Shown here one piece after another: positions 1 through 23,276 of a stretch of 26,394 nt of DNA. Each line of letters opens with the position of its first letter. The first letter of the stretch is position 1. The notes beneath the pieces are model-generated. The model had not been told where the DNA came from, did no database searches, and saw nothing but the letters and a program-made list of their open reading frames with translations. The position numbers and the translations under genes are program-made. This DNA is from a virus: positions 1 to 26,394 of IMG/VR virus record IMGVR_UViG_3300021365_001482. One strand, 5' to 3'.

Positions 1-483
1 TATGTCAAGATATCTGTTGTCATTGTCTGTGCAACCATATAAATCCATACAGTGTGCTTCATTGTTATCATCAAAGTAAAAAGTATGAGGGTACATGTTA
101 ATTTTGTATATGTTTTGCTGTTCTAAATCTTGTTTTATTTGTTTAATTTTTTCTTTCCAATTGGGTATGTTGTCTATCTGATTGGTTTCAATCAAAACAT
201 TAAGATTTTTATTGTACCATTTGAATTTAATTTCTCTTTTAGCATAATCAATATCTAATAATTCTGGAATATATTTTGTGTCTTTTAATTTTGAAAGATA
301 TACCACTTCTTGATCAAACCAGAAGTTGTATAATTCTTCATTCATAGATTCATTCTCAAAATAGTCGTTTGGATTCCAATTCATACAGAACACAGTGTTG
401 TCTTCGCTGACAAGCGGTTGGTAAAGCATATTCGCCACAGCGAGTCCTTGTTTATGTTTATAAAAATGCTTCCAATTAGGCAT
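1..483 (-). CDS. Partial protein with faint protein-kinase-like features (C-terminus outside window)
   Basis: The reading frame stays open from an ATG at 483 to the window edge, giving 161 residues without a stop, so the C-terminus is missing. The ATG overlaps the end of the preceding 2OG oxygenase gene by 8 nt, which implies cotranscription. The layout loosely recalls a kinase or aminoglycoside-phosphotransferase fold. There is a Glu (E59) in an early helix-like segment, then a stretch resembling 'YIPELLDID' with a following beta strand, then a catalytic-loop-like segment around N129-D139 (IN-MYPHTFYFDD), and a DFG-like 'MDLYG' with D147. The canonical HxDxxxxN is not intact. Function is therefore unknown and a pseudokinase or unrelated fold is possible. 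The gene's existence is much surer than its family. Confidence 0.6.
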   Translation of the reverse strand, partial: MPNWKHFYKHKQGLAVANMLYQPLVSEDNTVFCMNWNPNDYFENESMNEELYNFWFDQEVVYLSKLKDTKYIPELLDIDYAKREIKFKWYNKNLNVLIETNQIDNIPNWKEKIKQIKQDLEQQNIYKINMYPHTFYFDDNNEAHCMDLYGCTDNDNRYLDI

Positions 484-1153
484 ACACAATATCTATTTTA
501 AATCCACAAATTTGTTGCATCTTTAAAAGTTCATTTATTTTTGATCCATCACACAAAAATTTAATTGTGTGTTCATTAATTCTAGCAAAGGCATCTATTG
601 ATTGTTCTTTTGCTAATCTGTTGAGCAGTATTGAAAAAGAACTGTCAAAAAGATATCTTAAATTGTACACAGGATCGGTTGATGTCATAACAACCTGTCT
701 TGGATCATTCATCATACGGTTACTTTGCAATCTCTTGCGTATTACCAATTGATATCTGTTCTTGTATCCATAATTAGACGCTGAATGAAGCATTCCTGCG
801 TTCATCAAGTACACTGTGTTGTCTGGTTTACTAGAATACATTGTTTCATTTTCAATATCATGAAGAAAACTTTGTTCTGCATCTAGTGTGACATGATATC
901 TGTCATCTACATCAGCATGAACCGAATAACTTTTGCCGGGTGCCATTACAATTACTCTTGCTTCACCGTGATCTGGCAACTGTTTCAATAAATCTTCAAT
1001 GGCAGTGCCTTTATATTCTGGTAACACCTCCCAAGGATCATAAAAAAAGTCTCCTGTAGGTTTGTTCAAAGTATTTTTACCTTCTGGTAAATGCTTTACT
1101 AAATCAAATAATATTTTGGAATTGGTTTTGGTATCTAATTTTTTTAACATCAT
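476..1153 (-). CDS. 2-oxoglutarate/Fe(II)-dependent oxygenase, aspartyl/asparaginyl hydroxylase-like
   Basis: This 225-aa protein carries the jelly-roll Fe(II)/2OG signature. H79 and D81 form the HxD pair (S-V-H-A-D), H123 is the distal iron ligand after a 'VYLMNAG' strand, and R133 or R139 would bind the 2OG carboxylate. The spacing fits the aspartyl/asparaginyl beta-hydroxylase-like group, whose members hydroxylate peptide side chains or free amino-acid moieties; the substrate here cannot be read from sequence. About 85 C-terminal residues follow the catalytic core and are unassigned. Translation starts at a tandem ATG-ATG (1153/1150) with no clear Shine-Dalgarno. The gene is divergent from the PP-loop gene across a 60-bp promoter region. 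A second enzyme with the same active site lies at 8504-9163. Confidence 0.75.
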   Translation of the reverse strand: MMLKKLDTKTNSKILFDLVKHLPEGKNTLNKPTGDFFYDPWEVLPEYKGTAIEDLLKQLPDHGEARVIVMAPGKSYSVHADVDDRYHVTLDAEQSFLHDIENETMYSSKPDNTVYLMNAGMLHSASNYGYKNRYQLVIRKRLQSNRMMNDPRQVVMTSTDPVYNLRYLFDSSFSILLNRLAKEQSIDAFARINEHTIKFLCDGSKINELLKMQQICGFKIDIVYA

Positions 1154-1191: not shown

Positions 1192-1200
1192 CGATAAATA
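1192..1200 (+). promoter_or_regulatory. T4-type late promoter (CGATAAATA)
   Basis: CGATAAATA matches the T4-type late -10 consensus (TATAAATA; NATAAATA in relatives) and is identical to the element at 18382-18390 ahead of a fibre gene. It lies 13 nt before the ATG at 1214, so the transcript would have a leader of only a few nucleotides. No Shine-Dalgarno is visible there. Confidence 0.45.
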
Positions 1201-1213: not shown

Positions 1214-2020
1214 ATGTCCAATTTAGAAAATATAAGATCTCTATACCAATCTAGTGCCTATCATGATATCCTTCATGATGTAAATGGAGTAATATTTCCT
1301 TTCAATCCTGAATGGAAAAATATTGGTATCAGTGTGAGCGGTGGTGCAGACAGTGCCTTAATGAGTGTGCTGTTGTGCAGTATTATATCTCAATTGAAAT
1401 CTAACACCAATGTACACATCATAACCAATATAAGATGTTGGAAAACCAGACCTTGGCAAAAACAAAACAGTTTGAATGTGTTCAATTGGATTACTAATTC
1501 TTTTCCTAACATACAATTTAAAAGACATGAAAATTTTATTGCTCCTGATTTAGAATGGGGATCAATAGGACCCAACATACAGGATGAATATGGCAAATTA
1601 AAAAGCGGAAATCAAATAGAATTAAGAGCACACGCAGAATATGTGGCTCATACAGAAAATTTAGATGCTTGGTACTGTGGTGTGACCAAGAATCCAGACA
1701 AAGAATTTGATGGTCGTCTATTGGATCGAGACATCGAAGATGTTACATTAGACAGACTGATCAAAACACACATGGGCGGCTTGGCTTGTCACCCTTTCAC
1801 ACACGTTCAAAAAGATTGGATAGTTGCTCAATATAAAAAATTAGGCATAATGGACCTATTTGATCTTACAAGAAGTTGTGAAGGTGATAATCAGACATAT
1901 CCTGAAATCTTTGGAGACTTAGATTACAAGACATATGTTTCAGGGTCGCCTGTGCCAGTGTGTGGTAAATGTTTTTGGTGTAAAGAACGAGAATGGGGAG
2001 TTAGCAAATGTCAAGACTGA
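1214..2020 (+). CDS. PP-loop ATPase, QueC-like (7-cyano-7-deazaguanine synthase-like)
   Basis: This 268-aa protein has the ATP-pyrophosphatase PP-loop SGGADS at residues 42-47. Its C-terminus carries a QueC-type zinc site: C222 in a 'TRSC' motif, then C250, C253 and C256 in a C-x2-C-x2-C cluster. The segment before C222 (a conserved K, a short helix, then 'DLTRSC') also follows the QueC pattern. The fold adenylates a carboxylate or similar group; in QueC the product is preQ0. No QueD, QueE, FolE or DNA-transglycosylase gene is in the window, so a deazaguanine role is not established and a related amide- or nitrile-forming reaction is possible. First gene of the only plus-strand cassette; its last 13 nt overlap the next gene. 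Confidence 0.75.
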   Translation: MSNLENIRSLYQSSAYHDILHDVNGVIFPFNPEWKNIGISVSGGADSALMSVLLCSIISQLKSNTNVHIITNIRCWKTRPWQKQNSLNVFNWITNSFPNIQFKRHENFIAPDLEWGSIGPNIQDEYGKLKSGNQIELRAHAEYVAHTENLDAWYCGVTKNPDKEFDGRLLDRDIEDVTLDRLIKTHMGGLACHPFTHVQKDWIVAQYKKLGIMDLFDLTRSCEGDNQTYPEIFGDLDYKTYVSGSPVPVCGKCFWCKEREWGVSKCQD

Positions 2021-2625
2021 TAACTTTTGGTTGTTCGTATGCTTATGGCACAGGATTACCTGACTGTAACAATTGGATGTTTGATAAACTGCATAATCTA
2101 AAACCCAGCAAATTAGGATGGGCAAGTTTATTGGCTAACAAAATGAAAGTTGAATGTGTGAACGAATCTTTTCCAGGATCAAGCAACACAGAAATACTGT
2201 ACAATGTTTTAAAATTTGATTACAAACCTAATGACACTGTGGTTGTTATGTGGACACACTTTGTGAGAGACATGCTGTTTAATTTTCCTCATAAATTTCC
2301 TTTCTTTAGAGATAGATTAGGTCCTTGGGCAAAAACAAATCAAGAACGCAAATGGGCAGAGTATTTGAGTGAAAAAGATTATGCAATGAAAAGTTGGTTC
2401 AATATACAACATGCAGATTTACATCTACAAAAACAAGGTGTAAATTATATTCATTATCCTGCGACACCTGAAGAATTAAATAAAAACAAATTAGAATTTA
2501 TACAAGTAGAAAACTATCATAGCGATGGTATCGTGTACTTGGACACAGCAACAGACGATATGCACCCTGGAGAAAAAACAAATCAACTGTTGTGCGAATC
2601 AATATATAGGAGATTACATGACTGA
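2008..2625 (+). CDS. SGNH/GDSL-family hydrolase
   Basis: This 205-aa protein shows the SGNH blocks in order. An N-terminal strand ends in F-G-C-S with S10 as the likely nucleophile (the usual GDS Asp is replaced by Cys). Next comes 'FPGSSN' (about 55-60) with the block II Gly and block III Asn, and finally D183-x-x-H186 followed by Pro-Gly as the catalytic Asp-His pair. Family members are esterases, acyl- or acetyl-esterases and acyltransferases, often acting on carbohydrates. There is no signal peptide, so action in the infected cytoplasm or on virions is likely. The start at 2008 is supported by GGGGAG at 1995-2000. It overlaps its upstream neighbour by 13 nt and its downstream neighbour by 8 nt, so it is translationally linked to the PP-loop and radical SAM genes. 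Confidence 0.7.
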   Translation: MSRLITFGCSYAYGTGLPDCNNWMFDKLHNLKPSKLGWASLLANKMKVECVNESFPGSSNTEILYNVLKFDYKPNDTVVVMWTHFVRDMLFNFPHKFPFFRDRLGPWAKTNQERKWAEYLSEKDYAMKSWFNIQHADLHLQKQGVNYIHYPATPEELNKNKLEFIQVENYHSDGIVYLDTATDDMHPGEKTNQLLCESIYRRLHD

Positions 2626-4036
2626 TAGCAACGAGTATTGGCAAAATCCTAAAGACACCCAGTTGGGTAAATGGCAAAAAGAACTTGAATCTGTATCAGG
2701 CAGTTCTACGTTTTGTATTCTACCATGGATACATTTTGCTACCAGACCCAATGGAGATATGAGATTGTGTTGCTCAGCAAACGCCAGCGGTGCTGGTACC
2801 GACCACGAAGTGGGACTGGTTAAAAAGGAAGATGGCACTCCTGCAAACTTTGGCAAGGACACTCCTATGGAAGCATGGAACAACGATTACATGAAATCAG
2901 TGCGTACAACTATGATGAATGGCAAAGTACCTGCCAGTTGTAGCAAATGTTTTCAAGAAGAAAAAGTAGGTGTTGTGAGTAAACGTATATGGGAAACTGG
3001 TACGTGGTACAAAGATGGAGTTGATATACCCGAGTTACTGCGTCAAACTAAAGAAGATGGCACAGTGCCTGAACAATTAATGTATCTGGATCTAAGACTT
3101 GGACACACTTGTAATATCAAATGTGTGATGTGTTCTCCGCATGACAGTTCAAAATGGGTTAAGGATTGGCAACAGTTGATGCCTCAATTAAAAGATAAAA
3201 CTGTAAAAGATCAATTACAATGGAATAAAAAAGAATTCAATAACAAATGGCATGAAAAAGATACGTTCTGGCAAGAGATGTACGCACAGATTCCTAATCT
3301 TAAACAGGTTTATTTTGCAGGCGGTGAGCCTTTAATGATTAAAGAACACAAACAGTTTATTGAAGAAATTATCAGACAAGGCTATCAAGATAAAATATTG
3401 TTGCGTTACAACTCTAATGGCTTGTTAGTGGATGAAGATTTAATCCAATTGTGGAGCAAGTTTAGAAAAGTTAAATTTGCTGTCAGCATGGATGCCATGG
3501 GCAAACGTGATGAGTACATACGTTTTCCTACAAATTTTGATACAGTGGAAAAAACTTTACACATGCTGGATAACACGCCAGACAATATTCAAACCAGTTT
3601 AGCCACAGCAATACAAATTTTCAACATCAAACACTTGCCCGACTTTATGAAATGGAAAGTGCAAAGTGGTTTTAAAAAGTTAAATGAAGGCACTGTGCCT
3701 GGTGGAGTACAAATGGGAGGTGGATTAGTGAACATGCACCTATTGTATATTCCAACATTCTTAAGCATACAGATATTGCCTAAAGAAGACAAACAAGAAG
3801 TTGAAGAAAGATTTATGGACTTTAAAGACTGGCTATGGAAAAATTATAGACAAGATGATGAGTATTGGAAACACAATCCTTATGGTTGGCGTCGTTGGGA
3901 GGCTGTGTTAAAACATATGAATCAAAATGATCACAGTAATCTACTTCCAGGATTCAAAGAATATGTTACAAAATTAGATGCCATAAGAGGCATAGATGCA
4001 AAATCTATATTTCCTGAATTGGAGCATTTATTATGA
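2618..4036 (+). CDS. Radical SAM protein with N-terminal twitch-like Cys domain (copy A)
   Basis: The start is ATG 2618, preceded by AGGAG at 2608-2612; the in-frame ATG further upstream lies inside the previous gene. The product is 472 aa. Residues about 30-115 form an N-terminal cysteine domain (C33, C51, C52, C108, C111) of the kind in 'twitch domain-containing radical SAM' proteins and probably bind an auxiliary iron-sulfur cluster. The radical SAM core follows, with the C165-x3-C169-x2-C172 cluster and GGEP at 235-238 for SAM binding, then a 'YNSNG' strand. Twitch/SPASM-type enzymes usually modify peptides or proteins, though some act on carbohydrates; the substrate is unknown. It overlaps the next radical SAM gene by ATGA, implying paired enzymes. 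A diverged homologue is at 5874-7148. Confidence 0.9.
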   Translation: MTDSNEYWQNPKDTQLGKWQKELESVSGSSTFCILPWIHFATRPNGDMRLCCSANASGAGTDHEVGLVKKEDGTPANFGKDTPMEAWNNDYMKSVRTTMMNGKVPASCSKCFQEEKVGVVSKRIWETGTWYKDGVDIPELLRQTKEDGTVPEQLMYLDLRLGHTCNIKCVMCSPHDSSKWVKDWQQLMPQLKDKTVKDQLQWNKKEFNNKWHEKDTFWQEMYAQIPNLKQVYFAGGEPLMIKEHKQFIEEIIRQGYQDKILLRYNSNGLLVDEDLIQLWSKFRKVKFAVSMDAMGKRDEYIRFPTNFDTVEKTLHMLDNTPDNIQTSLATAIQIFNIKHLPDFMKWKVQSGFKKLNEGTVPGGVQMGGGLVNMHLLYIPTFLSIQILPKEDKQEVEERFMDFKDWLWKNYRQDDEYWKHNPYGWRRWEAVLKHMNQNDHSNLLPGFKEYVTKLDAIRGIDAKSIFPELEHLL

Positions 4037-4995
4037 ACGTAGTACAAGTATGGAATCCCCAACCTAAAGAAGTGTTGCGTATAGAATTTATGATCGGTAA
4101 CACTTGTAATTTTTCTTGTTGGTACTGTTTCGAAGGTTCACATGAAGGCACTCACAGATGGACAGATGACATGGATCAATTGGTGCTAAATTTTAAACAT
4201 CTATTTCAAAAATACAGAGCAGTAGGCAAAACAAAACTGGAACTGCACATTGTGGGAGGAGAACCTACATTGTGGCCTAGACTAGGTGAGTTTGTAACAG
4301 AAATCAGAAAAGAAATACCTTCATACATCACAATCAGTTCCAATGGTAGTAGAACTGTGAGATGGTGGCGCAAGTATGGTGAAGTGTTTGACAAAATTTT
4401 ATTGAGTGCTCATTGGAAACAATGTGACGTGCCACATTTTATTGAAGTGGCAGACACACTGCATGAACTGGATAGAAGTCCTAACGCAATGGTTTTGATG
4501 GATCCAACTCAATGGGACGTGTGTTTAGGCTTGATTGATAAATTTAAAAAAAGTAAACATGATTGGTTTATAAGTGCTATGGAAGTGATGCATCGCACAA
4601 TCACTTACACCGACGAACAAAAAGCATTCGTCGCCAAACCCACAAAAAGAAGACCTAGTCTATGGCATTTATGGACACACAGAAAACATTTAAAAAGTGA
4701 ACCCACTATTAAGTTTGAAGATGGATCAAAGAAACAGGTTAATCGCAATTGGCTTGTATTGAACAAGCAAAATGACTTCCGAGGTTGGATGTGTAATATA
4801 GGAGTAGACAGCATGATGATTGATCCTGCTGGTCTGATAACAAGTGCTTGTAGAACTAGTCTGTTTGAAGATTACAACATATATGATCCAGACTTTGTGA
4901 CAAAATTTAATCCTGATATCAAACCAAAAATTTGTGACAAACGCAACACTTGTATGTGTCAGCCTGAAAGTTTATTGGATAAAGTTAAACTTTAG
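4033..4995 (+). CDS. Radical SAM protein with C-terminal GWxCNxG cysteine domain (copy A)
   Basis: This 320-aa protein has the radical SAM cluster C25-x3-C29-x2-C32 (T-C-N-F-S-C-W-Y-C), GGEP at 75-78 and a 'SSNGS' strand. A SPASM/twitch-like C-terminal domain holds C254 in GWMCNIG, C273, then C301, C307 and C309, enough for one or more auxiliary clusters. The same C-terminal signature recurs in the genes at 4985-5881 and 10733-11821, defining a three-member family in this phage. It starts within the stop of copy A of the twitch enzyme (ATGA, with GGAG at 4021-4024). Its 3' end overlaps the convergent minus-strand gene by 11 nt. The reaction is unknown; family context suggests peptide or glycan modification. 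Confidence 0.88.
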   Translation: MNVVQVWNPQPKEVLRIEFMIGNTCNFSCWYCFEGSHEGTHRWTDDMDQLVLNFKHLFQKYRAVGKTKLELHIVGGEPTLWPRLGEFVTEIRKEIPSYITISSNGSRTVRWWRKYGEVFDKILLSAHWKQCDVPHFIEVADTLHELDRSPNAMVLMDPTQWDVCLGLIDKFKKSKHDWFISAMEVMHRTITYTDEQKAFVAKPTKRRPSLWHLWTHRKHLKSEPTIKFEDGSKKQVNRNWLVLNKQNDFRGWMCNIGVDSMMIDPAGLITSACRTSLFEDYNIYDPDFVTKFNPDIKPKICDKRNTCMCQPESLLDKVKL

Positions 4996-5881
4996 ATTTT
5001 GTAATATTAATATCTGCGGCACATGTACACCATTCACGTGTACAGTCAATTGATTCAGTAGGTTGAACAAACGTACCTTCATAGATATTTCCGATAGGTC
5101 CTCCCACTCTACAAGTGGCTCTATGCACTTCTCCGTCCCAATTGATCATTAAACTTTCCAATCCTGCATTGCATTTCCAGCCTTTGAATTGATTTGTTTT
5201 TTCAATCAGCAAGTCGTTTGTGTTGCAAGATTCTGTTTCGTCTATCAATGTGTTGTGTGGGGGATTATGATTTTGTGCCACCAAAAAATCTTTTTCTTCT
5301 GCAGAGTAACGTTCCATATCTTCAAAAATATCATGCGTTTCTGTCCAACGAATTGGACGTAGAGCATAGTTTATTCCTGCTTCTTTTAGGCGTCTACAAG
5401 CGTCAGAGACGTCATCTAACTGCCCTGGTAACATCATTACGTGTGCTAGTATATTTTTATTTTTTGTTTGTTGTGCGACGTTTAAAACGGTTTCTATCAC
5501 CTTTTGGTAGTCGTATTCGAAGTGTATAGAGAACACAATATGGTTTATCAGTCTATCCAAAATATCTATGTAGAACTCTGCAGTTCTTGTTCCGTTTGTG
5601 GTCACATTTAACCAAGACACTTTTGGTTTAGCATACTCCAATAGTTCTAAAATTTTTGGATGCACACAAGGTTCTCCACCTGTAAAACTGATTCGCATGT
5701 TGTTGATTTTGGAAAGTTCATCCACAGCATTTTTTAAAATGTCAATGTCTGTGTGAGGACTTGTATTGTCATGTATCACTGCTGGACAATAAGAACAATC
5801 GTAATTGCATCTTTTTCCAAGATTCCATTCAACTTTTACACTCTGTTGTATGTGAGGATATAGATGTTCAACTTTAAACAT
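4985..5881 (-). CDS. Radical SAM protein with C-terminal GWxCNxG cysteine domain (copy B)
   Basis: This 298-aa homologue of 4033-4995 has C25-x3-C29-x2-C32 (R-C-N-Y-D-C-S-Y-C), a 'FTGGEP' SAM motif and a 'TTNGT' strand. The C-terminal auxiliary-cluster domain has C237 (GWKCNAG), C257, C280, C285 and C287, matching copy A ligand for ligand, including the final C-x-C. It is the last gene of the long minus-strand operon. It overlaps the upstream twitch radical SAM gene by 8 nt, and its 3' end meets the plus-strand cassette tail to tail. GGAG lies about 10 nt before the ATG. The partner order (twitch enzyme first, this enzyme second) repeats the plus-strand pair. Confidence 0.88.
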   Translation of the reverse strand: MFKVEHLYPHIQQSVKVEWNLGKRCNYDCSYCPAVIHDNTSPHTDIDILKNAVDELSKINNMRISFTGGEPCVHPKILELLEYAKPKVSWLNVTTNGTRTAEFYIDILDRLINHIVFSIHFEYDYQKVIETVLNVAQQTKNKNILAHVMMLPGQLDDVSDACRRLKEAGINYALRPIRWTETHDIFEDMERYSAEEKDFLVAQNHNPPHNTLIDETESCNTNDLLIEKTNQFKGWKCNAGLESLMINWDGEVHRATCRVGGPIGNIYEGTFVQPTESIDCTREWCTCAADINITKSKV

Positions 5882-7148
5882 AATCTTGAAACTCCGGATT
5901 TATTTTTTCAAACGGTCCTTGGTTTCTTGTTAGATCAAGTTTTCTGTTAAAGTCTACGCAATCTTGCCAATATTGATTAAGGTCTTTTGCTTGTAAAAAA
6001 TTAATGTTATCTTGTATTTGTTGTTGTGTAATTTTTTCCAATACTGGGTGTTGTTTTACTATTTCATAATCTTTAATCTTAGGTTTCATTGCCTCTAATT
6101 TTGCTACCACTTGATCTTTTAATGCTTTGGGTAGAACCTGTGCCGATAATGCTCTAGGATAATTTACTCTGTGACTGTAAAACACAATCTTCATATCATT
6201 TAAAAAATAGTCAATCACTTTGTCTATTTGTAGAATATTGTTTGCTTGTACAGTAAAAGCACCCACGATTCGACTGACTGTTGGAATCTTTTTCATTTCT
6301 TTAATATTGTATTCAACATCCGAAAACTTTCCATTACCTCGAATGTATTCATATATGTCATGCAATCCGTCTATGCTTACATTGACAGCAACACTTTTAA
6401 ACTTGGGCCAATAGTCATGCACTGTTCTTCCGCCTTTGATTCCTAATTTAGTGCCGTTGGTTGCATATTTTATTTCAATGTTATCTCCATTCTTGGATAA
6501 CAAATCTAATATTTTATAATGCACAGGATCCATTAACGGTTCTCCACCTGCAAATTCTACACGTCTAAAGTAAGGTAAAAGTTTTTCAAGGTTTTCCCAA
6601 AAATGATCTTTATCTTCAAATATTCCTACATAAGGTGCTTTCGTTAATCCTAAATTTTCAACAGCGTCTACTAGATAGTTTCCTTCTTTTTTGTAATGAT
6701 CGACAATAGACGTCCAATCTTTCCATTGAGTAGAATCTAAAGGATTACACATTCTACATTTTAAATTGCATAAGTTATTAATTTTAATTTCTATTGTGGG
6801 CAATTCAAACGGCATTGAATAATCATCGTTAAGTTTGTCTAATGCATTTGGGTATAAATTAATTCTAGATTCCGGAGATGAATCAGTAATATGTCTTTGA
6901 CGCAGACTTTGTACTCCTTGATCTTCTAAATCAAAACAAGGTTCACACACATCTGGACGTTCATCGTTTAACACTTGACGTCTTACATCTTTCATTTTGT
7001 CAGAGTTCCATGCTTCTTCCAGACTCATGTCTTTTATATTGCCTATAGGAAGACTACGACAGCAAACTTTAATTGCTCCGTCTTCTCTAGTAGCCAATCC
7101 TGTGAAAGGATGCATACAAAAAGTACAACTGTTTTTATTTTTCTTCAT
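5874..7148 (-). CDS. Radical SAM protein with N-terminal twitch-like Cys domain (copy B)
   Basis: ATG 7148 was chosen because a purine-rich GGGAAGAAG immediately precedes it and it keeps the overlap with the upstream gene to 14 nt; ATG 7190 would add 14 residues and a 56-nt overlap. The 424-aa product has an N-terminal cysteine domain (C8, C11, C29, C30, C68, C71). The radical SAM core has C127-x3-C131-x2-C134, GGEP at 201-204 and a 'YATNGT' strand. The spacing of N-terminal cysteines and the 'EAWNSD' segment parallel copy A at 2618-4036 ('EAWNND'). Overall similarity looks distant, so this is not a recent duplication. The final ~100 residues are helical and unassigned. Confidence 0.9.
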   Translation of the reverse strand: MKKNKNSCTFCMHPFTGLATREDGAIKVCCRSLPIGNIKDMSLEEAWNSDKMKDVRRQVLNDERPDVCEPCFDLEDQGVQSLRQRHITDSSPESRINLYPNALDKLNDDYSMPFELPTIEIKINNLCNLKCRMCNPLDSTQWKDWTSIVDHYKKEGNYLVDAVENLGLTKAPYVGIFEDKDHFWENLEKLLPYFRRVEFAGGEPLMDPVHYKILDLLSKNGDNIEIKYATNGTKLGIKGGRTVHDYWPKFKSVAVNVSIDGLHDIYEYIRGNGKFSDVEYNIKEMKKIPTVSRIVGAFTVQANNILQIDKVIDYFLNDMKIVFYSHRVNYPRALSAQVLPKALKDQVVAKLEAMKPKIKDYEIVKQHPVLEKITQQQIQDNINFLQAKDLNQYWQDCVDFNRKLDLTRNQGPFEKINPEFQDYV

Positions 7149-8520
7149 CTTCTTCCCAAGGATCTTTGGGATTACTCCAATCTTTTCCAAAACGCCACAT
7201 AGGCGCTTTTAAGGTTTCAATATCTACTTCATAGAAATCTTCAATAGGTCCTGCATCAATGTCATATTCTACAAAACCTGACCATGCATGTTGAGACACT
7301 ATTAATTGTATTTTATCGTATTTTTCTTTAAGCAATCTTATCAATTGATTCTGTTTGAATACTCGTTGCTTGGTTGGGACAAACGGCACTGTTGGCTCAT
7401 AAGCAAATATGTTACTGATGTTGAAGATAACATTTCGATCATTTTTTGGGTTGATTGTGAATTCATTTAACAAATCGCACTCAACAAATTTAAATTTAAT
7501 TTTATCTTTAATGTGCCAAAGATGTCTAAAAGTTTCAAAATGTTCCGCTACTTCTAATTTAGAATTTAACCAGTCTGGTGTTTTGTGTCTATTACAAGAT
7601 TGTAAAAATTTATGATAATCCCCGCCATCAAATTTTTGTATTGTTTGTTCCATGTAGTACAATGCGTTAGGATTGTAATCATAAAACACAACTTCAGTAC
7701 CTTCGTCATAACCATGTTTTTCCAGATACAATAACCAGTTAAATCCACTGGCAGGTGTTATTAATTGTTTAAGTGTGCCTGTGTGGACAGACTGTAATTC
7801 TTCTGTATTGATTGGGTAAAACAATCTATTCGCACTTTGATTATATTTTTTAAATATCTGTTTACTGTTTTCATTGAAGTCTGTTTCATGTACAGCATAA
7901 TAACATTTTTTACTGGCACGTATTGCTTCATCAAACACTATAATGTTTTCTTTATTGTCCAGTGCAGTTCTAATAATGTTCCATCCATGCCATTTGTGTT
8001 TGTACGTTTTAAGTTCATTGCCGGGTTTTACCCATAAAGGCGTATAATCATCATGGAAATTTTCATCACTCCTGATTGGTTCTGTACTAAAATGTTCTGA
8101 GTTTCGTTCAAGATCACCTATTGTAGGTAATTCTAATTCTTTATGTTTTTTTAAATTGATCACATAACATTGTTCATGAAGTTCATAGTATCCGTCTTTT
8201 CTATCTAACACATGACCGGCTATATAAAAATCTTGTTCAATCAGTTTGTGTAAATGTTTGAAGAATGCACCGCCCTGAAATTCTGTGTCAGGAGTAAACA
8301 CCACAGCATAATCATAATCATCAACCATCTTGGCTATGGTGGCATCTTCAGATATTGAAATCTGTACATCATATCCCATTGTGTTTAAATTTCCAATTTG
8401 GTATTCAGTGATGTTTTGAATTAATTCTTTTGCTGAAACATTTTTAATTGCGTGTAAATTAGTTTCAAGAATAAAAACTATATTGTGTTTTTTATGCTGT
8501 GCATTATAATCGAACGCCAT
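7135..8520 (-). CDS. Two-domain protein: N-terminal GT-A-like region, C-terminal Rossmann/methyltransferase-like region
   Basis: This 461-aa protein has two apparent halves. Residues about 12-125 resemble a GT-A nucleotide-sugar fold: a beta strand 'IVFILET', 'YAVVFTPDTE' with D78-T-E80 in a DxD-like position, then an amphipathic helix and 'FYIAGHVLD'. Residues about 250-430 resemble a class I SAM methyltransferase: 'TPASGF' (255-260) at motif I, 'VVFYDYNP' (277-284) with an acidic residue after strand 2, and 'VIFNISNIFAYEP' (374-386) at motif IV. The C-terminus is acidic (EEDEE). Neither half is textbook, so both calls are inference. AGGAG lies 11 nt before the ATG. It overlaps the upstream oxygenase gene by 17 nt and the downstream radical SAM gene by 14 nt. 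Confidence 0.5.
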   Translation of the reverse strand: MAFDYNAQHKKHNIVFILETNLHAIKNVSAKELIQNITEYQIGNLNTMGYDVQISISEDATIAKMVDDYDYAVVFTPDTEFQGGAFFKHLHKLIEQDFYIAGHVLDRKDGYYELHEQCYVINLKKHKELELPTIGDLERNSEHFSTEPIRSDENFHDDYTPLWVKPGNELKTYKHKWHGWNIIRTALDNKENIIVFDEAIRASKKCYYAVHETDFNENSKQIFKKYNQSANRLFYPINTEELQSVHTGTLKQLITPASGFNWLLYLEKHGYDEGTEVVFYDYNPNALYYMEQTIQKFDGGDYHKFLQSCNRHKTPDWLNSKLEVAEHFETFRHLWHIKDKIKFKFVECDLLNEFTINPKNDRNVIFNISNIFAYEPTVPFVPTKQRVFKQNQLIRLLKEKYDKIQLIVSQHAWSGFVEYDIDAGPIEDFYEVDIETLKAPMWRFGKDWSNPKDPWEEDEEK

Positions 8521-9163
8521 ACTTTTTTATACTCCTATCTAATAATGTGTTAAATTCAGTTCTTTTGTTGCCAATGTGTGCTTGAGCAATCATGTGTATT
8601 CTTTCAACATTGGCGTTGTTTATTACTTGATGATCTTTTAATATATTAAGTAAAAATACTTTGCCATGTCTAAAAGGCACAAGACCGTGATCTTTAATTT
8701 CCATATAACATAGAGCAGGGTGTAAAATAGCAACATTGATAGGAATCAGATATTCGCACAAATCTTCTGGCAATTCATGTCCTGGATTATCATTGTGCCA
8801 ATCAATTCTTCCAGCAGGATCCAATTTCATAAATCTTATTCTACTGTATCTTTCAGCAGGAAATTTATCCCAAAACATTTTTACTGCCGGAGTCTCCTGT
8901 GACAACTGTGTCCATTTGTATGGAGCATTTAACTCATCATCATAACCATATTCTTTTGCCACCTGTGTTTTATCAATCCCCAATCCATGCAGACAACAAC
9001 TGCTCCATCCTTTGTGTGATTCATTCTCTCTGTGAGGCACATAATGTTTGTCCACTTTTGCTAATTCTTTGTCATCAACATACGGATTAAAATCCATATC
9101 TAGTTCCAACCACGGCAGTGTACCGTCTTTGAATTTGTCAAAAACTCTAGTTGCTGTATCCAT
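8504..9163 (-). CDS. 2OG/Fe(II)-dependent oxygenase, aspartyl/asparaginyl beta-hydroxylase-like
   Basis: This 219-aa protein has the complete AspH-type active site. W122-H123-N-D125 supplies the HxD pair, H178 is the distal iron ligand in a 'DHQVINN' motif, and R188 (after 'NANVE') fits the 2OG-binding Arg in the HxVxNxxxxxR signature of the Asp/Asn beta-hydroxylase family (PF05118-like). Such enzymes hydroxylate Asp/Asn or related side chains in peptides and some small molecules. The start is firm: AGGAG six bases before the ATG. It overlaps its upstream methyltransferase and downstream two-domain gene by 17 nt each. It is a clearer family member than the second oxygenase at 476-1153. Confidence 0.82.
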   Translation of the reverse strand: MDTATRVFDKFKDGTLPWLELDMDFNPYVDDKELAKVDKHYVPHRENESHKGWSSCCLHGLGIDKTQVAKEYGYDDELNAPYKWTQLSQETPAVKMFWDKFPAERYSRIRFMKLDPAGRIDWHNDNPGHELPEDLCEYLIPINVAILHPALCYMEIKDHGLVPFRHGKVFLLNILKDHQVINNANVERIHMIAQAHIGNKRTEFNTLLDRSIKKYGVRL

Positions 9164-9764
9164 CTTTTGCTCCTAATATCATAAATCTTTTGTATTTTTC
9201 TGTAACCAACTCGGAAGCAGATGAAACCTGCAATCCGCAATTTTTTTTAAATGATAATAAACTTTCATGACAGTTTACATGCTCTTTGTTATCAAAATAA
9301 TCATTGCTTTGTATTATAACCTGCGTTTGGTTAGGTAATTTTGCAATCCATTTATTGTATTCATCTTGCGTCATGTGTTCACAAGCAGTGTTTATTATCA
9401 CATTATGTTTGTGATAGTTTTTATAATCTAAAATGTTTTCTGTAATTGCTTGGAATTTACCAGACATTTCATAATCTTTGTTCATTGTGTTAGCAATAGA
9501 TTCACATGCAGGGTCTTTGTCTATTGATGTTATTTTTACAATGTCTAATTCGCTGTTGAATAGCAATGTAGATAGCACTCCGTTCCAACCACCACACACA
9601 ACAATATTATATGGCAATCTTTGAAAATACTTCTGCAATGTTTCAATCAACCAAACTTTGCTGTTGATTTGTCCTTTCCAAAAACTTTCAAGAGTGCGAT
9701 ACCTGTCATCAGATTGTCTAATAGCATCCATCCAATACAACACATCTTTAATATTAATTTTCAA
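9147..9764 (-). CDS. Class I SAM-dependent methyltransferase
   Basis: This 205-aa protein starts at a TTG (9764) supported by AGGAG six bases upstream (9771-9775). The Rossmann methyltransferase signature is visible: motif I 'VVCGGWNGVLSTLL' at about 55-68, motif II 'ITSIDKDP' at 78-85 with D82 as the probable ribose ligand, and motif IV 'NVIINTACEH' at 121-130. The target (protein, sugar or small molecule) cannot be told. It lies between a SPASM radical SAM gene (11-nt overlap) and a hydroxylase gene (17-nt overlap), consistent with successive modification of one substrate; that is inference. Confidence 0.75.
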   Translation of the reverse strand: MKINIKDVLYWMDAIRQSDDRYRTLESFWKGQINSKVWLIETLQKYFQRLPYNIVVCGGWNGVLSTLLFNSELDIVKITSIDKDPACESIANTMNKDYEMSGKFQAITENILDYKNYHKHNVIINTACEHMTQDEYNKWIAKLPNQTQVIIQSNDYFDNKEHVNCHESLLSFKKNCGLQVSSASELVTEKYKRFMILGAKDGYSN

Positions 9765-10740
9765 ATTGAGCTCCTAGTTTATCAAAAGATCCACATTGTT
9801 TACCACATTCTTGTAATGGTGAGTGACCCCAAGTTTTTTCAATCTTATCAAAGTATCCATTATCAAATATTTCTTTTAAACTGTTTTTATTTAGGTTAGG
9901 AAATTCTCCAATTCTTGTCATGTAGTCTATTCTGCTTTCTTGCATAGGAGGAATCCATTCCATATCTAACCAACAACAAGGTGAAACATTGCCACAGGCA
10001 CTCACGTACAACTGACTGTTTTTCACTGCTTTACACACAATGGTTGGCGTGGTTTCTTTTTGCGACTGTTCAATTAATGGAATCATGTCATTGCTTTTTT
10101 GTGTAGGTTCTAATTTATGCAAAGGTTTTCCTTGCTCATCTATAACTTGTAAACTATCATTTTTAAATCTAGAAGTGTGTTTTGTAGAAAACATTTTAAA
10201 TCCTAGGTCTTTGCTCATTTGTTCTGCTTCTTCCACTTGATGTTCGTTGTGTTTGAACACCAACATGTGCCATTTAGCAAATCCTCCAGCGGCAATAAAT
10301 GCTTTTGCGTTCTCAATAATTTTATCAAAGTTTGTGGATATTCTATAAAGATGATTGGTGTCTGATAGTCCATCTAAACCAAAAGTAACTTTCACTCTTT
10401 CTTGTGCTAATTTTGTCCACCATTCAGGATCTCTAGCACTGCCATTTGTGTGCATCGCAAGTCTTATAGCGGGATTAGTTGCTCTAAGGTGTTGATATAT
10501 TTCCAGTGTGTCTTTGCTTACAATAGGATCTCCTAAGTTACCACACATAAACATACTGTCTATTTGTTTTATAAAATCTTCAGGAAACCATTTTTTAAAT
10601 GTGTCCAATGTTATTTCATCCAGATGTATGAAAGGATTTAATGGACCTCCTTGTATTCTTCTAGGACACATAGGACATTTGGCTTGACATTTACTCGTAA
10701 TTTCTAAATGAACATCTTTTATGTCTGTAAGTTTATACAT
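9754..10740 (-). CDS. Radical SAM/SPASM domain protein
   Basis: This 328-aa protein has the radical SAM cluster C18-x3-C22-x2-C25 (K-C-Q-A-K-C-P-M-C-P-R). A 'CGNLGDP' segment stands in place of GGEP, as in other SPASM enzymes of the 'GDP' type, and 'MHTNGS' follows. The C-terminal SPASM-like set is C236, C249, C255, C256, C312 and C316, suited to one or two auxiliary 4Fe-4S clusters. SPASM enzymes typically modify ribosomal peptides or proteins; a few act on aminoglycosides or other small molecules. It overlaps the upstream radical SAM gene by 8 nt and the downstream methyltransferase by 11 nt. AAGGAAAG precedes the ATG. Nothing in the sequence fixes the substrate. Confidence 0.9.
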   Translation of the reverse strand: MYKLTDIKDVHLEITSKCQAKCPMCPRRIQGGPLNPFIHLDEITLDTFKKWFPEDFIKQIDSMFMCGNLGDPIVSKDTLEIYQHLRATNPAIRLAMHTNGSARDPEWWTKLAQERVKVTFGLDGLSDTNHLYRISTNFDKIIENAKAFIAAGGFAKWHMLVFKHNEHQVEEAEQMSKDLGFKMFSTKHTSRFKNDSLQVIDEQGKPLHKLEPTQKSNDMIPLIEQSQKETTPTIVCKAVKNSQLYVSACGNVSPCCWLDMEWIPPMQESRIDYMTRIGEFPNLNKNSLKEIFDNGYFDKIEKTWGHSPLQECGKQCGSFDKLGAQFEN

Positions 10741-11821
10741 TTGTTCTTTCCTTTTTAAATAATTTTGATTGCTTACGACTAATTTCCATTATAACTTCTT
10801 CATTTTCTATGGCTTCTAATTTGTCTAACTCCCTTGATTTAGGAATTTTACTATCAGCAGAACTGACGCAAGTTGGTGTGATACACTTGTTAGGATTTTT
10901 AAATAATTGAAATCCTCCATCAATTGTTCCCAACGGTTCATCATGACAACTGTATGCTCTTTTAATTTCACCACCCGGCTCTCTTACAATACAACTTTGA
11001 TATCCTGCATTACAAGTCCAGCCTTTAAACTTATTGAAGCCAAATGCGTTGAACCTTTCTGCTTGATCTAGTTCATAGAAGTTTTCTTTGTGATCCATAA
11101 GTTTTATTTGACCAATTGTTGAACCATCATTTTTCTTTAATGGAAATCCTGTTTTCATTAATTCTATTTGTTCATCACTGTAACCTGTCACAATTTCACT
11201 TGCTGATTCATTGCTTTGTGGTTTTAGTGTAACATTTATTCCTCTATCGTTGAATCTTTTACATCTATCATATAGTTCATCAAACAAGTCTGGAACCATT
11301 ACTTGGTTAATTGTAACATAGACGCCTGCATTTTGCAACATCAAAAGTTTGTCTCCAAAAGTTTGTTCATCTGCAAACTCATGATGATAACTTGCTGTAA
11401 TACTTCTACGCATGAGAGATTCTGTGGCTTTAAGCCAAGTGTTCCACCATTTTATTCCCGGTGAACAATTTGTTGTCATGTGAATACTTTGGTATTTGCT
11501 TCTATCATCTGAAGCATAATGTCCAATTAAAGGTAAAAATCTTTTGTATGCTGTTGGTTCTCCACCTGAAAAACTAAAATGGAAACTGTTAAACCCATTA
11601 CTTCTTGCTTGTGATTTTATTTCATCCATTGTCTTTTTGTAAACGTCTAATGGTCGATGGTCTAATTTTTTAGAATGGGCATAAGGCCAACAGTATGAGC
11701 AATCATAATTACAGAATCTACTCAATATCCAACTCACATTAAACACGTTCTTCCATATCATGGTGCGTTGTCCGAATTGAACAATGTTATCAAATGGTAT
11801 TTTAGTAGTAGGTACTGACAC
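10733..11821 (-). CDS. Radical SAM protein with C-terminal GWxCNxG cysteine domain (copy C)
   Basis: GTG 11821 is chosen because GAGGAG (11829-11834) sits 7 nt upstream; a TTG at 11836 would overlap that Shine-Dalgarno. The 362-aa product has C37-x3-C41-x2-C44 (F-C-N-Y-D-C-S-Y-C), GGEP at 86-89 and 'MTTNCS' where relatives read TNGT. The auxiliary domain has C270 (GWTCNAG), C277, C292, C313 and C318. Unlike copies A and B it lacks the terminal C-x-C pair and has an extra Cys at 277, so its auxiliary cluster is probably ligated differently. About 44 charged, helix-forming residues extend the C-terminus. It is the first radical SAM gene of the minus operon and overlaps the upstream glycosyltransferase by 20 nt. 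Confidence 0.87.
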   Translation of the reverse strand: MSVPTTKIPFDNIVQFGQRTMIWKNVFNVSWILSRFCNYDCSYCWPYAHSKKLDHRPLDVYKKTMDEIKSQARSNGFNSFHFSFSGGEPTAYKRFLPLIGHYASDDRSKYQSIHMTTNCSPGIKWWNTWLKATESLMRRSITASYHHEFADEQTFGDKLLMLQNAGVYVTINQVMVPDLFDELYDRCKRFNDRGINVTLKPQSNESASEIVTGYSDEQIELMKTGFPLKKNDGSTIGQIKLMDHKENFYELDQAERFNAFGFNKFKGWTCNAGYQSCIVREPGGEIKRAYSCHDEPLGTIDGGFQLFKNPNKCITPTCVSSADSKIPKSRELDKLEAIENEEVIMEISRKQSKLFKKERTNV

Positions 11822-12491
11822 TGCAGGTCTCCTCAAAATGTTTTTTTAACCAATCAAAATTATTGATATAATTCAATTTGTCTTTGTTTTCTATGCCAAA
11901 TTTTTTACCAGACTTTGCTCCTTCAATTGCAAAATCACCATAAGGTCTATCTGCACCTTTACTACACCATACATCTAATCTTTGTTCTGTTTCTTTATCC
12001 TCTTGTCTATCGATCACTTTCGAACTTAATTTTACACACTCCCTAAAAGCACTTTTCCAAGCACTGAAAGGATCTGAATTAAATGCTGTGATGTTTGATA
12101 CTTGTTTTATTGCTTTAAAATTTTTAGAAATGCTTGTGGTCATGTCTGTTGTATCTGTGTCTAGTGCTAATGTTAAGTTCTTTGGCAATAGTTTTACTCC
12201 ACCATATCCATACTGTAAATCATTGATCGGATTACGACTCTGCCACACATGAACTGTTTCTAAATTGTATTGATCTACATCATAATCAAAATTAAAATCA
12301 TTTACAATTTGTGCGTCAGCATCAACTACCCAAAACATTTTTGTAACAGATGTTTTTGCGGCTTCAATGTGTGCTTGATGAATACCTTTTACTCCTTGTA
12401 CACGTTGAGCAATAGGGAATCGTTCACACAAAGTTTTATAATTATGATCTGCTAATGCTTCGTTGTAACTTATAAACACAATATCGTACAT
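11802..12491 (-). CDS. GT-A-type glycosyltransferase-like protein (pair 2, short member)
   Basis: This 229-aa protein begins with a 'DIVFISYNE' strand and has the segment 'RVQGVKGIHQAHIEAA' followed by 'FWVVDADA', where D57-A-D59 is a DxD nucleotide-sugar/metal motif. A later segment around 'WKSAFRECVKL' and 'YGDFAIEGAKSG' matches the neighbour at 12491-13399, so the two are paralogues; this copy is about 70 residues shorter at its C-terminal end. Similar GT-A-like proteins occur in T4-like marine phages (from general knowledge). The donor and acceptor are unknown. It is linked by a TAATG one-base overlap to its upstream paralogue and overlaps a radical SAM gene downstream. Confidence 0.65.
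   Translation of the reverse strand: MYDIVFISYNEALADHNYKTLCERFPIAQRVQGVKGIHQAHIEAAKTSVTKMFWVVDADAQIVNDFNFDYDVDQYNLETVHVWQSRNPINDLQYGYGGVKLLPKNLTLALDTDTTDMTTSISKNFKAIKQVSNITAFNSDPFSAWKSAFRECVKLSSKVIDRQEDKETEQRLDVWCSKGADRPYGDFAIEGAKSGKKFGIENKDKLNYINNFDWLKKHFEETCSVSTYY
11829..11834 (-). promoter_or_regulatory. Shine-Dalgarno (GAGGAG) that decides a GTG start
   Basis: GAGGAG lies 7 nt upstream of GTG 11821 and inside the coding end of the preceding glycosyltransferase. It argues for GTG over the in-frame TTG at 11836. Confidence 0.6.
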
Positions 12492-13399
12492 TATAATGTT
12501 TTCCTCATTATTCTTGGAGTATTAAGATAAACCTTTTTAAAAAATTTGCTTTGTTCCACAGTTAATGGTTCAATAGGCAGTTCAATGTCATGTTCGTTAA
12601 TAATCTTTTTGCCTAAGTCAATACTGTCTTTATAAAAATCAACTTTAATGTCATCATGAAGTTCAAACTTCCAATACTTTTCAAAATATCTATATTCATT
12701 TGCCTGACTAAAGTCCCAATCTGTACACATTGTAAGATAACAACCTGTCCTAGCACCATGAATAGCATGAATGCCGTAAGTGTTATCCATGCCCACTGTC
12801 ATCCAGACAAGTAATCGTTGATAATTTTGCCACCATAAGTCTTTTGGTGCTTGTCTAACATTTTTATCCAAACTCATTTTTACACCTTCTCTAAATCCTG
12901 CTCTCCAGGCTTGGTAAGCAGATCCATCTATGTAACTGGTTGAATAGTTATCGTTGAATTGATAGTAATTAGGAAAATGACAAAATTCTATTACATTTTT
13001 ATTGTTACTTCCTTCTAATCCATCATGATTCTCATGTGTTTTCATATTTTTAACAAAGTCCTTGGTCCAACATTTTAAACTGCCATTGCCATATTTTAAA
13101 CCATTTAGATCAATATTGCCGCACCAACTGAATTGATAGGTGTTGTCTACGCCTAACGATTTTAAATCTACTATTACATTAAGAAAGTCTTCATGCACCT
13201 GCGTATCTGCATCCACTGTTATAAATCTTTCTGTGTCAGATATCTCTGCCGCTTTTTTATGTGCTGTGTCAAAGCCTTTTACGCCATGCACACGTTTTGC
13301 CCAAGGGATTTTTCTTTTTAAATCAGCAAAATTTTTTTCAGCATTGGGCTCATCCACACTTAAAAATACAAAATCCATTTCAGATATCTTTAAAATCAT
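12491..13399 (-). CDS. GT-A-type glycosyltransferase-like protein (pair 2, long member)
   Basis: This 302-aa paralogue of the gene downstream has an N-terminal 'DFVFLSVDEPNAE', then 'RVHGVKGFDTAHKKAAE' and 'FITVDADTQ' with D63-A-D65 as the DxD motif. The second shared block is 'AWRAGFREGVKM', and 'YGIHAIHGARTG' aligns with 'YGDFAIEGAKSG' of its neighbour. The C-terminal ~60 residues, with aromatic-rich 'YRYFEKYWKF', are absent from the short member. The start overlaps the upstream stop as ATGA, with GAGGT six bases before it. A role in decorating a virion or host glycan is inferred from the fold. Confidence 0.65.
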   Translation of the reverse strand: MILKISEMDFVFLSVDEPNAEKNFADLKRKIPWAKRVHGVKGFDTAHKKAAEISDTERFITVDADTQVHEDFLNVIVDLKSLGVDNTYQFSWCGNIDLNGLKYGNGSLKCWTKDFVKNMKTHENHDGLEGSNNKNVIEFCHFPNYYQFNDNYSTSYIDGSAYQAWRAGFREGVKMSLDKNVRQAPKDLWWQNYQRLLVWMTVGMDNTYGIHAIHGARTGCYLTMCTDWDFSQANEYRYFEKYWKFELHDDIKVDFYKDSIDLGKKIINEHDIELPIEPLTVEQSKFFKKVYLNTPRIMRKTL

Positions 13400-15617: not shown

Positions 15618-15953
15618 TTAGATCTCACCTTTATCTTTCACTATTTGATTATATTCTACAAAATATTGATTAAGATTGCGTTGATACAAGTCAGTAATAT
15701 CGCTGTGAAAGGATTTAATGTCTGTAATTTTCACAGGAAGTTTATAATCATCAAGGAAGATTGCTTCATTAGTTTTCTTAATGTTCATTAGTGTTAACGA
15801 ATAATTGATAAGGTTTAAATCAACAGTGAATTGGTGTCCTTGAGTGTATAAGATATTGTTCTCAAGACATTTTTCTTTTAACAATTTTATTTGATTGTTA
15901 AATGTTTTTAGACGCTGTGCGTATTCCAAAGATTTTGATAAGGATTCATCCAT
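15618..15953 (-). CDS. Small DUF4376-like phage protein, possible tail-fibre accessory/chaperone
   Basis: This 111-aa product follows the pattern of the DUF4376 family often encoded beside phage tail fibres: an N-terminal helix, 'QGHQFTVDLNLIN', a helix, then 'IFLDDYKLPVKITDIKSFHSDI' and a C-terminal amphipathic helix. The position directly after the fibre block fits a fibre accessory or assembly role, which is inference. It is the first gene after a sigma70-type promoter (15966-15994). The predicted transcript would begin only a few bases before the ATG and no Shine-Dalgarno is present, so it may be translated leaderless. Confidence 0.5.
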   Translation of the reverse strand: MDESLSKSLEYAQRLKTFNNQIKLLKEKCLENNILYTQGHQFTVDLNLINYSLTLMNIKKTNEAIFLDDYKLPVKITDIKSFHSDITDLYQRNLNQYFVEYNQIVKDKGEI

Positions 15954-23267: not shown

Positions 23268-23276
23268 TATTTATTG
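23268..23276 (-). promoter_or_regulatory. T4-type late promoter-like element (CAATAAATA)
   Basis: CAATAAATA on the minus strand overlaps the stop codon of the large upstream gene (TAA at 23271-23273) and lies about 22 nt before ATG 23246. It would serve the 203-aa protein and the two following fibre genes, which have no promoter of their own. Confidence 0.5.

Follow-up and report, generated by a model that had tools for sequence, protein, structure and literature searches.

A conserved cluster of six radical SAM genes beside the tail-fibre operon of a marine T4-like phage, with a core shared by Bdellovibrionota

Overview of the gene cluster

The viral DNA analysed here (the window, 26,394 nucleotides) harbours six radical SAM (rSAM) genes together with genes for partner enzymes and glycosyltransferases beside a tail-fibre operon (Table 1). 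The cluster would encode one biosynthetic pathway, conserved in a group of marine T4-like phages and located in their host-recognition region. Its predicted core comprises R1, R5 and R6, rSAM enzymes with auxiliary iron-sulphur clusters, together with MT205, which has a SAM-dependent transferase fold, and GTa. Phage additions around this core would be three further rSAM enzymes (R2, R3 and R4), glycosyltransferases of the GT8 type, two hydroxylases and a QueC-superfamily ATP ligase. In the reading that we prefer, to which we give a probability of roughly 0.4, the pathway acts late and builds a decoration that is tailored by rSAM enzymes, is probably linked to a glycan and most likely sits on a p288-type fibre protein. 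The glycosyltransferases would assemble a glycan on the fibre protein in the cytoplasm, with p288 as the best candidate, and an unusual group would be made or tailored by the rSAM enzymes, the hydroxylases, the ligase and MT205. We infer the chemistry, the order of the steps and the target of the pathway in this form.

Table 1. Features of the window, with positions, strand and supporting evidence
Feature	Position (strand)	Description	Evidence
~225-aa protein	1..489 (-)	conserved; kinA/kinB families in relatives; cut by window end	no Pfam match
2OG_A	476..1153 (-)	2-oxoglutarate Fe(II) oxygenase, Asp/Asn beta-hydroxylase type	HxD...H...R invariant
Late promoter	1194..1200 (+)	T4-type core before PP-loop operon	ATAAATA
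PP-loop	1214..2020 (+)	PP-loop ligase, QueC superfamily, C-x27-CGxC-x2-C motif	PF06508 via relatives, AlphaFold, Foldseek, alignment
SGNH	2008..2625 (+)	SGNH-hydrolase-like protein	by-eye motifs alone; relatives in 10 loci
R1	2618..4036 (+)	rSAM with N-terminal twitch domain, core member	NF033640 395, PF04055 39.5, invariant Cys
R2	4033..4995 (+)	rSAM, GWxCNxG C-terminal auxiliary-cluster region	PF04055 43.2, invariant Cys
R3	4985..5881 (-)	rSAM, GWxCNxG C-terminal auxiliary-cluster region	PF04055 51.1, invariant Cys
R4	5874..7190 (-)	rSAM with N-terminal twitch domain	NF033640 327, PF04055 43.7, alignment
p461	7135..8520 (-)	conserved 461-aa protein	seen in 23 loci; no match in Pfam or PHROG
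2OG_B	8504..9163 (-)	Asp/Asn beta-hydroxylase-type 2OG oxygenase	PF05118 28.8 bits, cut-off 22.6
MT205	9147..9764 (-)	class I SAM-dependent Rossmann enzyme (predicted fold)	AlphaFold pLDDT 89; Foldseek best 3fpe 2e-9
R5	9754..10740 (-)	rSAM with C-terminal SPASM, core member	PF04055 44.7, PF13186 25.3, invariant Cys
R6	10733..11836 (-)	rSAM with GWxCNxG, core member	PF04055 46.2, alignment, tree
GTa	11802..12491 (-)	putative glycosyltransferase, core partner	
GTb	12491..13399 (-)	putative glycosyltransferase, paralogue of GTa	PF00535 E 0.096 only; alignment
p198	13396..13992 (-)	small conserved protein	placed GTc-p198-GTb
GTc	13989..14816 (-)	GT8/glycogenin-like glycosyltransferase	profile match to glycogenin 6e-5
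GTd	14803..15615 (-)	GT8/glycogenin-like glycosyltransferase	same glycogenin-matching alignment as GTc
p111	15618..15953 (-)	small protein	always fibres-p111-glycosyltransferases
p288	16003..16869 (-)	fibre-like protein, candidate substrate	
fib492	16885..18363 (-)	tail-fibre protein	phrog_19602 tail fiber, E 2e-11
Late promoter	16890..16896 (-)	T4-type core before p288 + glycosyltransferase/rSAM operon	ATAAATA
fib735	18394..20601 (-)	virion structural or fibre protein	phrog_6002, phrog_14394
fib676	20601..22631 (-)	tail/collar fibre protein	phrog_9116 tail protein 3e-20
p203	22635..23246 (-)	fibre-operon conserved protein	77-97% identical in relatives; phrog_11259
p1020	23271..26393 (-)	virion structural protein; 5' end beyond window	phrog_708 baseplate wedge 2e-15

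Radical SAM enzymes

The six rSAM genes are intact and span positions 2618-11836 of the window. As proposed in the preliminary description, all of them encode CX3CX2C (6/6), with GGEP in R1-R4 and R6 and GDP in R5, and all score above the PF04055 cut-off (39.5-51.1 vs 29.5 bits). Extra cysteines had been assigned there to two N-terminal twitch-like regions, three GWxCNxG regions and one SPASM domain, and NF033640, PF13186 and the invariant-cysteine alignments agree. R1 and R4 are clear full-length members of the NCBIfam family N_Twi_rSAM (NF033640; 395 and 327 bits, cut-off 170), whereas R2, R3, R5 and R6 are not. The family name implies no reaction, and the literature search returned no experimental paper on it. 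R5 possesses a C-terminal SPASM domain (PF13186, 25.3 vs cut-off 21.5), and R2, R3 and R6 share GWxCNxG. Besides CX3CX2C, each rSAM family retains four to five invariant cysteines among 17-30 diverged relatives. The auxiliary cysteines are real, and auxiliary clusters are predicted from them.

Comparison of the rSAM profiles with solved structures gave only generic matches. Identity with viperin (NF038283) was rejected, the best score being 56 bits vs a cut-off of 180 and covering the core domain alone. A role as RiPP maturases was rejected as well, as the search for a precursor peptide or conserved short ORF in or beside the cluster found none (median gap 28 nt).

Partner enzymes and glycosyltransferases

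Both 2OG oxygenases named in the preliminary description were recovered, 2OG_B by PF05118 and 2OG_A, which alone misses that family (17.7 bits), by its invariant HxD...H and by a profile match to the solved beta-hydroxylase 7v4f (8e-16). The PP-loop ATPase is a protein of the QueC superfamily, with PF06508 matched by 17 of the 22 members of its family and a model of pLDDT 88. Two canonical QueC features are kept, SGGxDS as SGGADS and CxxCxxC as CGxCxxC with a further cysteine.

A pathway modifying phage DNA or RNA, for example with a 7-deazaguanine type base, would suit a QueC-like ligase, and DNA modification is common in T4-like phages. We nonetheless consider such a pathway very improbable. 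The QueC motifs YxQxHxxE, VPxRN and YPDC (PMC13329287) are missing from the PP-loop protein in the alignment to E. coli QueC, equivalents of QueD, QueE and FolE are absent from the window, and both location and promoters are typical of virion genes. A queuosine or deazaguanine pathway was rejected on the missing motifs and on QueE matches, which lie far below and never above the cut-off. The PP-loop protein also resembles the Cap9/QatC protein-deazaguanylating ligases of the QueC family (PMC13329287) in its PP-loop and C-terminal cysteine motif, C-x20-CGxC in shorter relatives being close to the C-x19-CGxC of QatC. However, the best Foldseek match, Cap9 (9nto), is weak (TM 0.47, 16% identity), and no CD-NTase, QatA, QatB or QatD partner was seen in the window.

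By its modelled fold, MT205 is a class I SAM-dependent enzyme, nearest to nicotianamine synthase or methyltransferases, with nicotianamine synthase barely ahead of many methyltransferases in Foldseek. Solved-structure searches with the PP-loop, MT and GTa/GTb profiles returned no matches. Four glycosyltransferases had been proposed; the assignment is supported for GTc and GTd, whereas GTa and GTb found no support as glycosyltransferases in Pfam and PDB searches.

Late promoters

Four late-promoter sites are present in the window, each just upstream of a start. In the relatives, 71 of 145 ATAAATA sites lie upstream of starts vs 5 expected (14-fold), a T4-like trait of TATAAATA-type late promoters. 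The gp23 major capsid protein is found in 8/12 related records; the 26-kb window stops short of gp23. The timing late in infection suggested previously is consistent with the T4-type late promoters predicted before the p288 and PP-loop operons. Because of these promoters and the gene overlap, we infer that the cluster is expressed late, together with the tail-fibre operon.

Conservation among phages

The same gene set was recovered from different starting genes. Among 56 loci found with R4, R3 was present in 56, MT in 54, R1 in 53, R5 in 49, the PP-loop gene and 2OG_A in 48 each, and R6 in 45. An independent search with MT205 found 24 loci, with R5, R6 and GTa in 24 each and R1 and R3 in 22 each. 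Within the stretches examined, the fibre operon p1020-p203-fib676-fib735(-fib492-p288-p111-GTs) precedes the cluster in 8/8 long T4-like records. When the search started from the fibre genes, each of the 62 loci recovered had both an rSAM relative and a glycosyltransferase-like gene after the fibres. A check on independent occurrence of the genes was run as well: they co-occur, and the fibre neighbourhood is conserved. These results uphold part of the earlier interpretation, that of a dedicated, conserved pathway adjoining fibre genes. Conserved order in the fibre region is possible without action on the fibres. A chance grouping is excluded, because the set recurs in the 56 loci found with R4 and again from other starting genes, and because the rSAM genes are under purifying selection (dN/dS 0.02-0.15).

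Alternatively, the region might be a hotspot where unrelated auxiliary metabolic genes collect, which boost host metabolism without forming one pathway. Phage rSAM genes have been so interpreted (PMC2853527, PMC5332604), and content at the cluster edges differs from locus to locus. This explanation is improbable and mostly refuted by co-occurrence, the core being near-constant from different starting genes; the orthologous core in bacteria and the strong purifying selection also argue against it.

Related loci add sugar-nucleotide genes (UDP-glucose dehydrogenase-like, epimerase-like and SDR-like), which would suit a host-surface glycan as well. A serious rival is that the pathway changes such a glycan late in infection and blocks re-adsorption or superinfection, fibre adjacency reflecting a shared host-recognition region. 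The glycosyltransferases of the same region in pelagimyophages have been explained likewise (PMC7029224), and the Bdellovibrionota modules described below possess GT2 glycosyltransferases and mostly lack a fibre. We regard this rival as unlikely. No membrane segment, flippase, polymerase or lipid-carrier transferase was found in the window cluster, and the promoters are late, whereas an earlier surface change would help. Moreover, p288 and p111 accompany glycosyltransferase and rSAM genes in one bacterial chromosome contig.

The core on Bdellovibrionota chromosomes

The R1-R5-R6 core is encoded on Bdellovibrionota chromosomes (22/369 genomes), mostly without fibres; the carriers identified are essentially all MAGs. 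An initial genome scan with R4 as sole query gave no matches; the Bdellovibrionota were found with a broader N-twitch alignment. Two loci, from the marine MAGs MED685 and MED657, were left out because these genomes also contain gp23, which makes the loci probable phage contigs. Phage R6 is 49-55% identical to its Bdellovibrionota orthologues, and one bacterial locus (L299) is a compact operon, GTa-R1-R6-R5. The R5 tree was quick and has a long branch, and no conclusion rests on it. As Bdellovibrionota chromosomes carry the core, it predates the phages or extends beyond them, and its mostly fibre-free occurrence there argues that the core reaction is not fibre-specific. In 21 of the 22 R6-bearing genomes p111 and p288 are missing; therefore, the core works without the p288 fibre protein.

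In the remaining case, a Bdellovibrionales contig of the SI034_bin15 lineage, rnhB-rplS-trmD-rimM-pheS-pheT (names assigned by eye) is followed by R1-GTa-R6-p288-p111-GTd-GTc-163aa-GTb-R1-R4-R3, with p288, p111 and the glycosyltransferases arranged as in the phages. No further phage genes were detected along 119 kb of this contig, and p288 was absent from the rest of the 369 genomes. The contig could be an assembly chimera.

Occurrence of the core alone on bacterial chromosomes, in a compact operon, would also suit a freely diffusing small molecule or cofactor, such as a signal, a metal binder or a natural product, that serves infected cells as well as Bdellovibrionota and is glycosylated by the glycosyltransferases. 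The nearest fold of MT205, nicotianamine synthase, and a natural-product-like set at the same place in the pelagimyophage Mosig point the same way. We hold such a product to be distinctly unlikely: the window cluster lacks an exporter, a free product leaves the fixed fibre-gene link in 62/62 loci unexplained, and the nicotianamine synthase match is hardly above many methyltransferases. Returning to a decoration of the fibre, it is rather unlikely that the modification is novel in the sense that a late multi-step rSAM pathway with the R1-R5-R6 core puts a new group on the receptor-binding fibre, with predatory or related Bdellovibrionota sharing the core by descent and using it for one of their own surface components.

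Comparison with known systems

The preliminary description regarded isolated rSAM genes in phages as known, which understates the record. Phage multi-rSAM modules are already published, for CP220 (2010) and, with 12 rSAM genes, for a T4-like genome of marine origin (2017). The T4-related Campylobacter phages CP220/CPt10 possess five clustered rSAM genes in modules exchanged between phages (PMC2853527); the cluster also includes two nucleotide-diphospho-sugar transferases and lies only a few genes away from those for the baseplate. However, in the phage collection the best match of R5 is only 26% identical and R6 has none, CP220 encodes a glycine amidinotransferase where the window has a QueC-like ligase and hydroxylases, and an orthologous bacterial core is not described for the CP220 module. 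The marine genome TARA_ERS488813_N000010 resembles the window phages by description, being T4-like with 12 rSAM genes and an Fe-S carrier gene, interpreted as Fe-S metabolism (PMC5332604); relatives of the window have 4-15 rSAM genes each and an A-type carrier in 3/15. Unlike the present analysis, PMC5332604 describes neither a pathway nor synteny, and no link to fibres or core in Bdellovibrionota.

The pelagimyophage Mosig EXVC030M (PMC7029224) has a similarly placed host recognition cluster, between fibre and VrlC/baseplate genes. Glycosyltransferases occur in this group, and the Mosig cluster has Asp/Asn hydroxylase-like genes, rSAM genes and an MT205 homologue (27%). In contrast, Mosig has only three rSAM-like genes, annotated as MoaA-like, and aminotransferases, nitroreductases and a carbamoyltransferase replace the R1-R5-R6 core. 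Mosig VrlC found no match in the related records and therefore gives no proof of exact region correspondence. In Vibrio phages K566/K567, two GT8 glycosyltransferase genes are interspersed among several rSAM genes, which include N-twitch relatives at 23-25% identity, but R6 is unmatched in the phage collection. The Bdellovibrionota counterpart of the R1-R5-R6 core goes beyond the preliminary description.

Implications

Long biosynthetic stretches beside fibre genes occur in many marine phages. For the question of what such genes make, the analysis supplies a concrete core of R1, R5, R6, GTa and MT205, p288 as a candidate target, a counterpart in bacteria and a likely late timing of expression, which opens it to in vitro work and mass spectrometry. 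Should the fibre carry the product, a widespread group of marine phages would need oxygen-sensitive radical chemistry for receptor binding, and fibre sequence by itself would not suffice for a full prediction of host range.

Radical SAM genes and partner enzymes

The IMG/VR virus record of 26,394 bases harbours six intact radical SAM (rSAM) genes, R1 to R6, between positions 2618 and 11836, and all six passed the cut-off in a Pfam search. R1 and R4 belong to the NCBIfam family N_Twi_rSAM, and their N-terminal domain also matches the BtrN twitch domain in a profile search. In alignments with 17-30 diverged relatives, each rSAM family retains the core triad and 4-5 additional invariant cysteines; dN/dS against relatives is 0.02-0.15. 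The cluster genes overlap by a few bases, with no space for a further gene.

Features of the window and of related loci
Feature	Coordinates	Strand	Description
R1	2618-4036	+	
R2	4033-4995	+	GWxCNxG
R3	4985-5881	-	GWxCNxG
R4	5874-7190	-	
R5	9754-10740	-	C-terminal SPASM
R6	10733-11836	-	GWxCNxG
L310 (G077 contig 21, Bdellovibrionales)	6549-19013		Housekeeping genes, then p288/glycosyltransferase/rSAM block
L128 (Mosig EXVC030M)	4702-22520		Natural-product-like gene set between fibre and VrlC genes
L122 (Vibrio phage K566)	10195-21163		Two GT8 genes interleaved with rSAM genes
L316 (G003:C1)	70000-89900		~3998-aa protein between fibre operon and gp6/gp25-like baseplate genes

The PP-loop protein is a member of the QueC superfamily; 17 of its 22 relatives match PF06508, and its C-terminal cysteine motif can be aligned to that of E. 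coli QueC. Motif and alignment comparison with E. coli QueC revealed none of the true-QueC substrate motifs (PMC13329287), thus its substrate is probably different. The top PDB match of its AlphaFold model is Cap9 (TM 0.47), a QueC relative that modifies protein (PMC13329287), and the model of MT205 has a class I SAM-binding fold nearest to nicotianamine synthase, with many methyltransferases close behind; such structural matches do not reveal substrates. 2OG_A and 2OG_B are predicted Asp/Asn-beta-hydroxylase-type oxygenases. GTc and GTd resemble glycogenin/GT8 proteins in profile matches. The putative glycosyltransferases GTa and GTb possess invariant acidic residues, family and solved-structure searches found no database support for them, and these two calls, like that of the SGNH protein, are weak.

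Conservation in T4-like phages

Relatives of R4 are encoded in 188 IMG/VR stretches. ORF clustering of 56 loci selected through R4 detected R3 in 56, MT205 in 54, R1 in 53, R5 in 49, PP-loop and 2OG_A in 48 each, R6 in 45 and R2 in 38. Since this set was chosen by R4, co-occurrence was counted again from MT205, where R5, R6 and GTa were present in all 24 loci with sufficient flank, R1 and R3 in 22, and R2 and R4 in 21. Phages with the cluster are T4-like, and gp23 was found in 8 of 12 related records. Fifteen large related records, all metagenomic, contain 4-15 rSAM genes each. Two marine MAGs, MED685 and MED657 (L132, L180), also combine rSAM clusters with T4-like gp23, and these two loci are therefore probably misbinned phage contigs.

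A-type Fe-S carrier genes (PF01521) occur in 3 of the 15 records (sources of L063, L043 and L047), which would fit a phage-supplied Fe-S need. Family c9 (L043, L056, L058, L062, L067) is a ~184-aa protein in two or three tandem copies, 2OG-oxygenase-like in its motifs by eye and without a Pfam match.

High rSAM gene numbers are known from CP220 (11) and CPt10 (12), with an exchangeable five-gene module (PMC2853527), and from a marine T4-like genome of 183 kb (12; PMC5332604); rSAM and glycosyltransferase genes are enriched in Tasman Sea viromes (PMC7150976). The set of the cultured pelagiphage Mosig includes three MoaA-like rSAM genes, aminotransferases, nitroreductases, a carbamoyltransferase, a desaturase and hydroxylases. 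In Vibrio phage K566, rSAM genes alternate with the two GT8 genes, and genes farther along are annotated as PagP, which acts in lipid A acylation, and as nicotinamide phosphoribosyltransferase. A search of open-access literature, which did not cover most subscription papers, found no paper on the cassette as a conserved unit, on its synteny with fibre genes or on the core in Bdellovibrionota.

Fibre neighbourhood and probable late expression

The fibre genes p1020-p203-fib676-fib735 run straight into the rSAM block in 8 of 8 long records, joined by fib492-p288-p111 and glycosyltransferases wherever the fetched stretches extend that far. In each of the 62 loci found through the small protein p111 with sufficient flank, one or more rSAM relatives and a glycosyltransferase-like gene lie no farther than 10 kb away; only 5 of these loci show the R6 orthologue itself in this range. 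ATAAATA, the T4 late promoter core, occurs at four sites in the window, each just upstream of a start (PP-loop, p288, fib492, p203). Of 145 such sites in relatives, 71 are placed likewise, versus 5 expected. The related phage Mosig has an annotated late sigma factor and late accessory protein; together with the motifs, this makes late co-expression with virion genes likely.

The fibre-like p288, single in the window, is duplicated in several relatives (L315, L319, L325). In L316, the ~3998-aa protein occupies the place of VrlC in Mosig.

A core shared with Bdellovibrionota

A broad N-twitch profile search found relatives outside phages mostly in Bdellovibrionota. R6 orthologues (49-55% identity to R6 of the window) were present in 22 of 369 Bdellovibrionota genomes, on contigs of up to 1.6 Mb, accompanied by R1 and R5, often by GTa, MT and GT2 glycosyltransferases, and once by a QueC-family gene; none of the 22 has a gp23 match. 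Bacterial and phage sequences split in the R6 tree with support of 100/100, which argues that the shared R1-R5-R6 core is old and not recent contamination.

Beyond housekeeping genes, identified by eye as rnhB, rplS, trmD, rimM, pheS and pheT, L310 reads R1-GTa-R6-p288-p111-GTd-GTc-163aa-GTb-R1-R4-R3, with p288 to GTb in phage order. A search of its remaining 119 kb for a T4-like gene set gave no matches; thus, the fibre-like protein, its small neighbour, glycosyltransferases and rSAM genes can form a unit outside a phage, as seen on one metagenome-assembled contig with the block close to its end. p288 and p111 were absent from all other of the 369 genomes searched, and the p288 profile included the L310 protein, inflating its own score. 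This unit is the best evidence for p288 as a candidate substrate or partner.

Proposed function

Cytosolic GT8-like enzymes, protein-modifying-type hydroxylases, a QueC-like ATP ligase and auxiliary-cluster rSAM enzymes, with neither precursor peptide nor exporter found in the cluster, suggest cytoplasmic glycan building and radical tailoring; no cluster protein of the window has a membrane segment. Among candidate targets, a fibre protein would best fit the position of the genes, their timing and the L310 unit. Alternatively, the pathway may modify the host surface, as argued for pelagimyophages (PMC7029224), or may make a free product. In most bacteria with the core p288 is missing, so the product of R1-R5-R6 must presumably be of use even in its absence. 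If this product were a sugar or some other group that glycosyltransferases attach afterwards, it would fit the phage and the bacterial cores alike.
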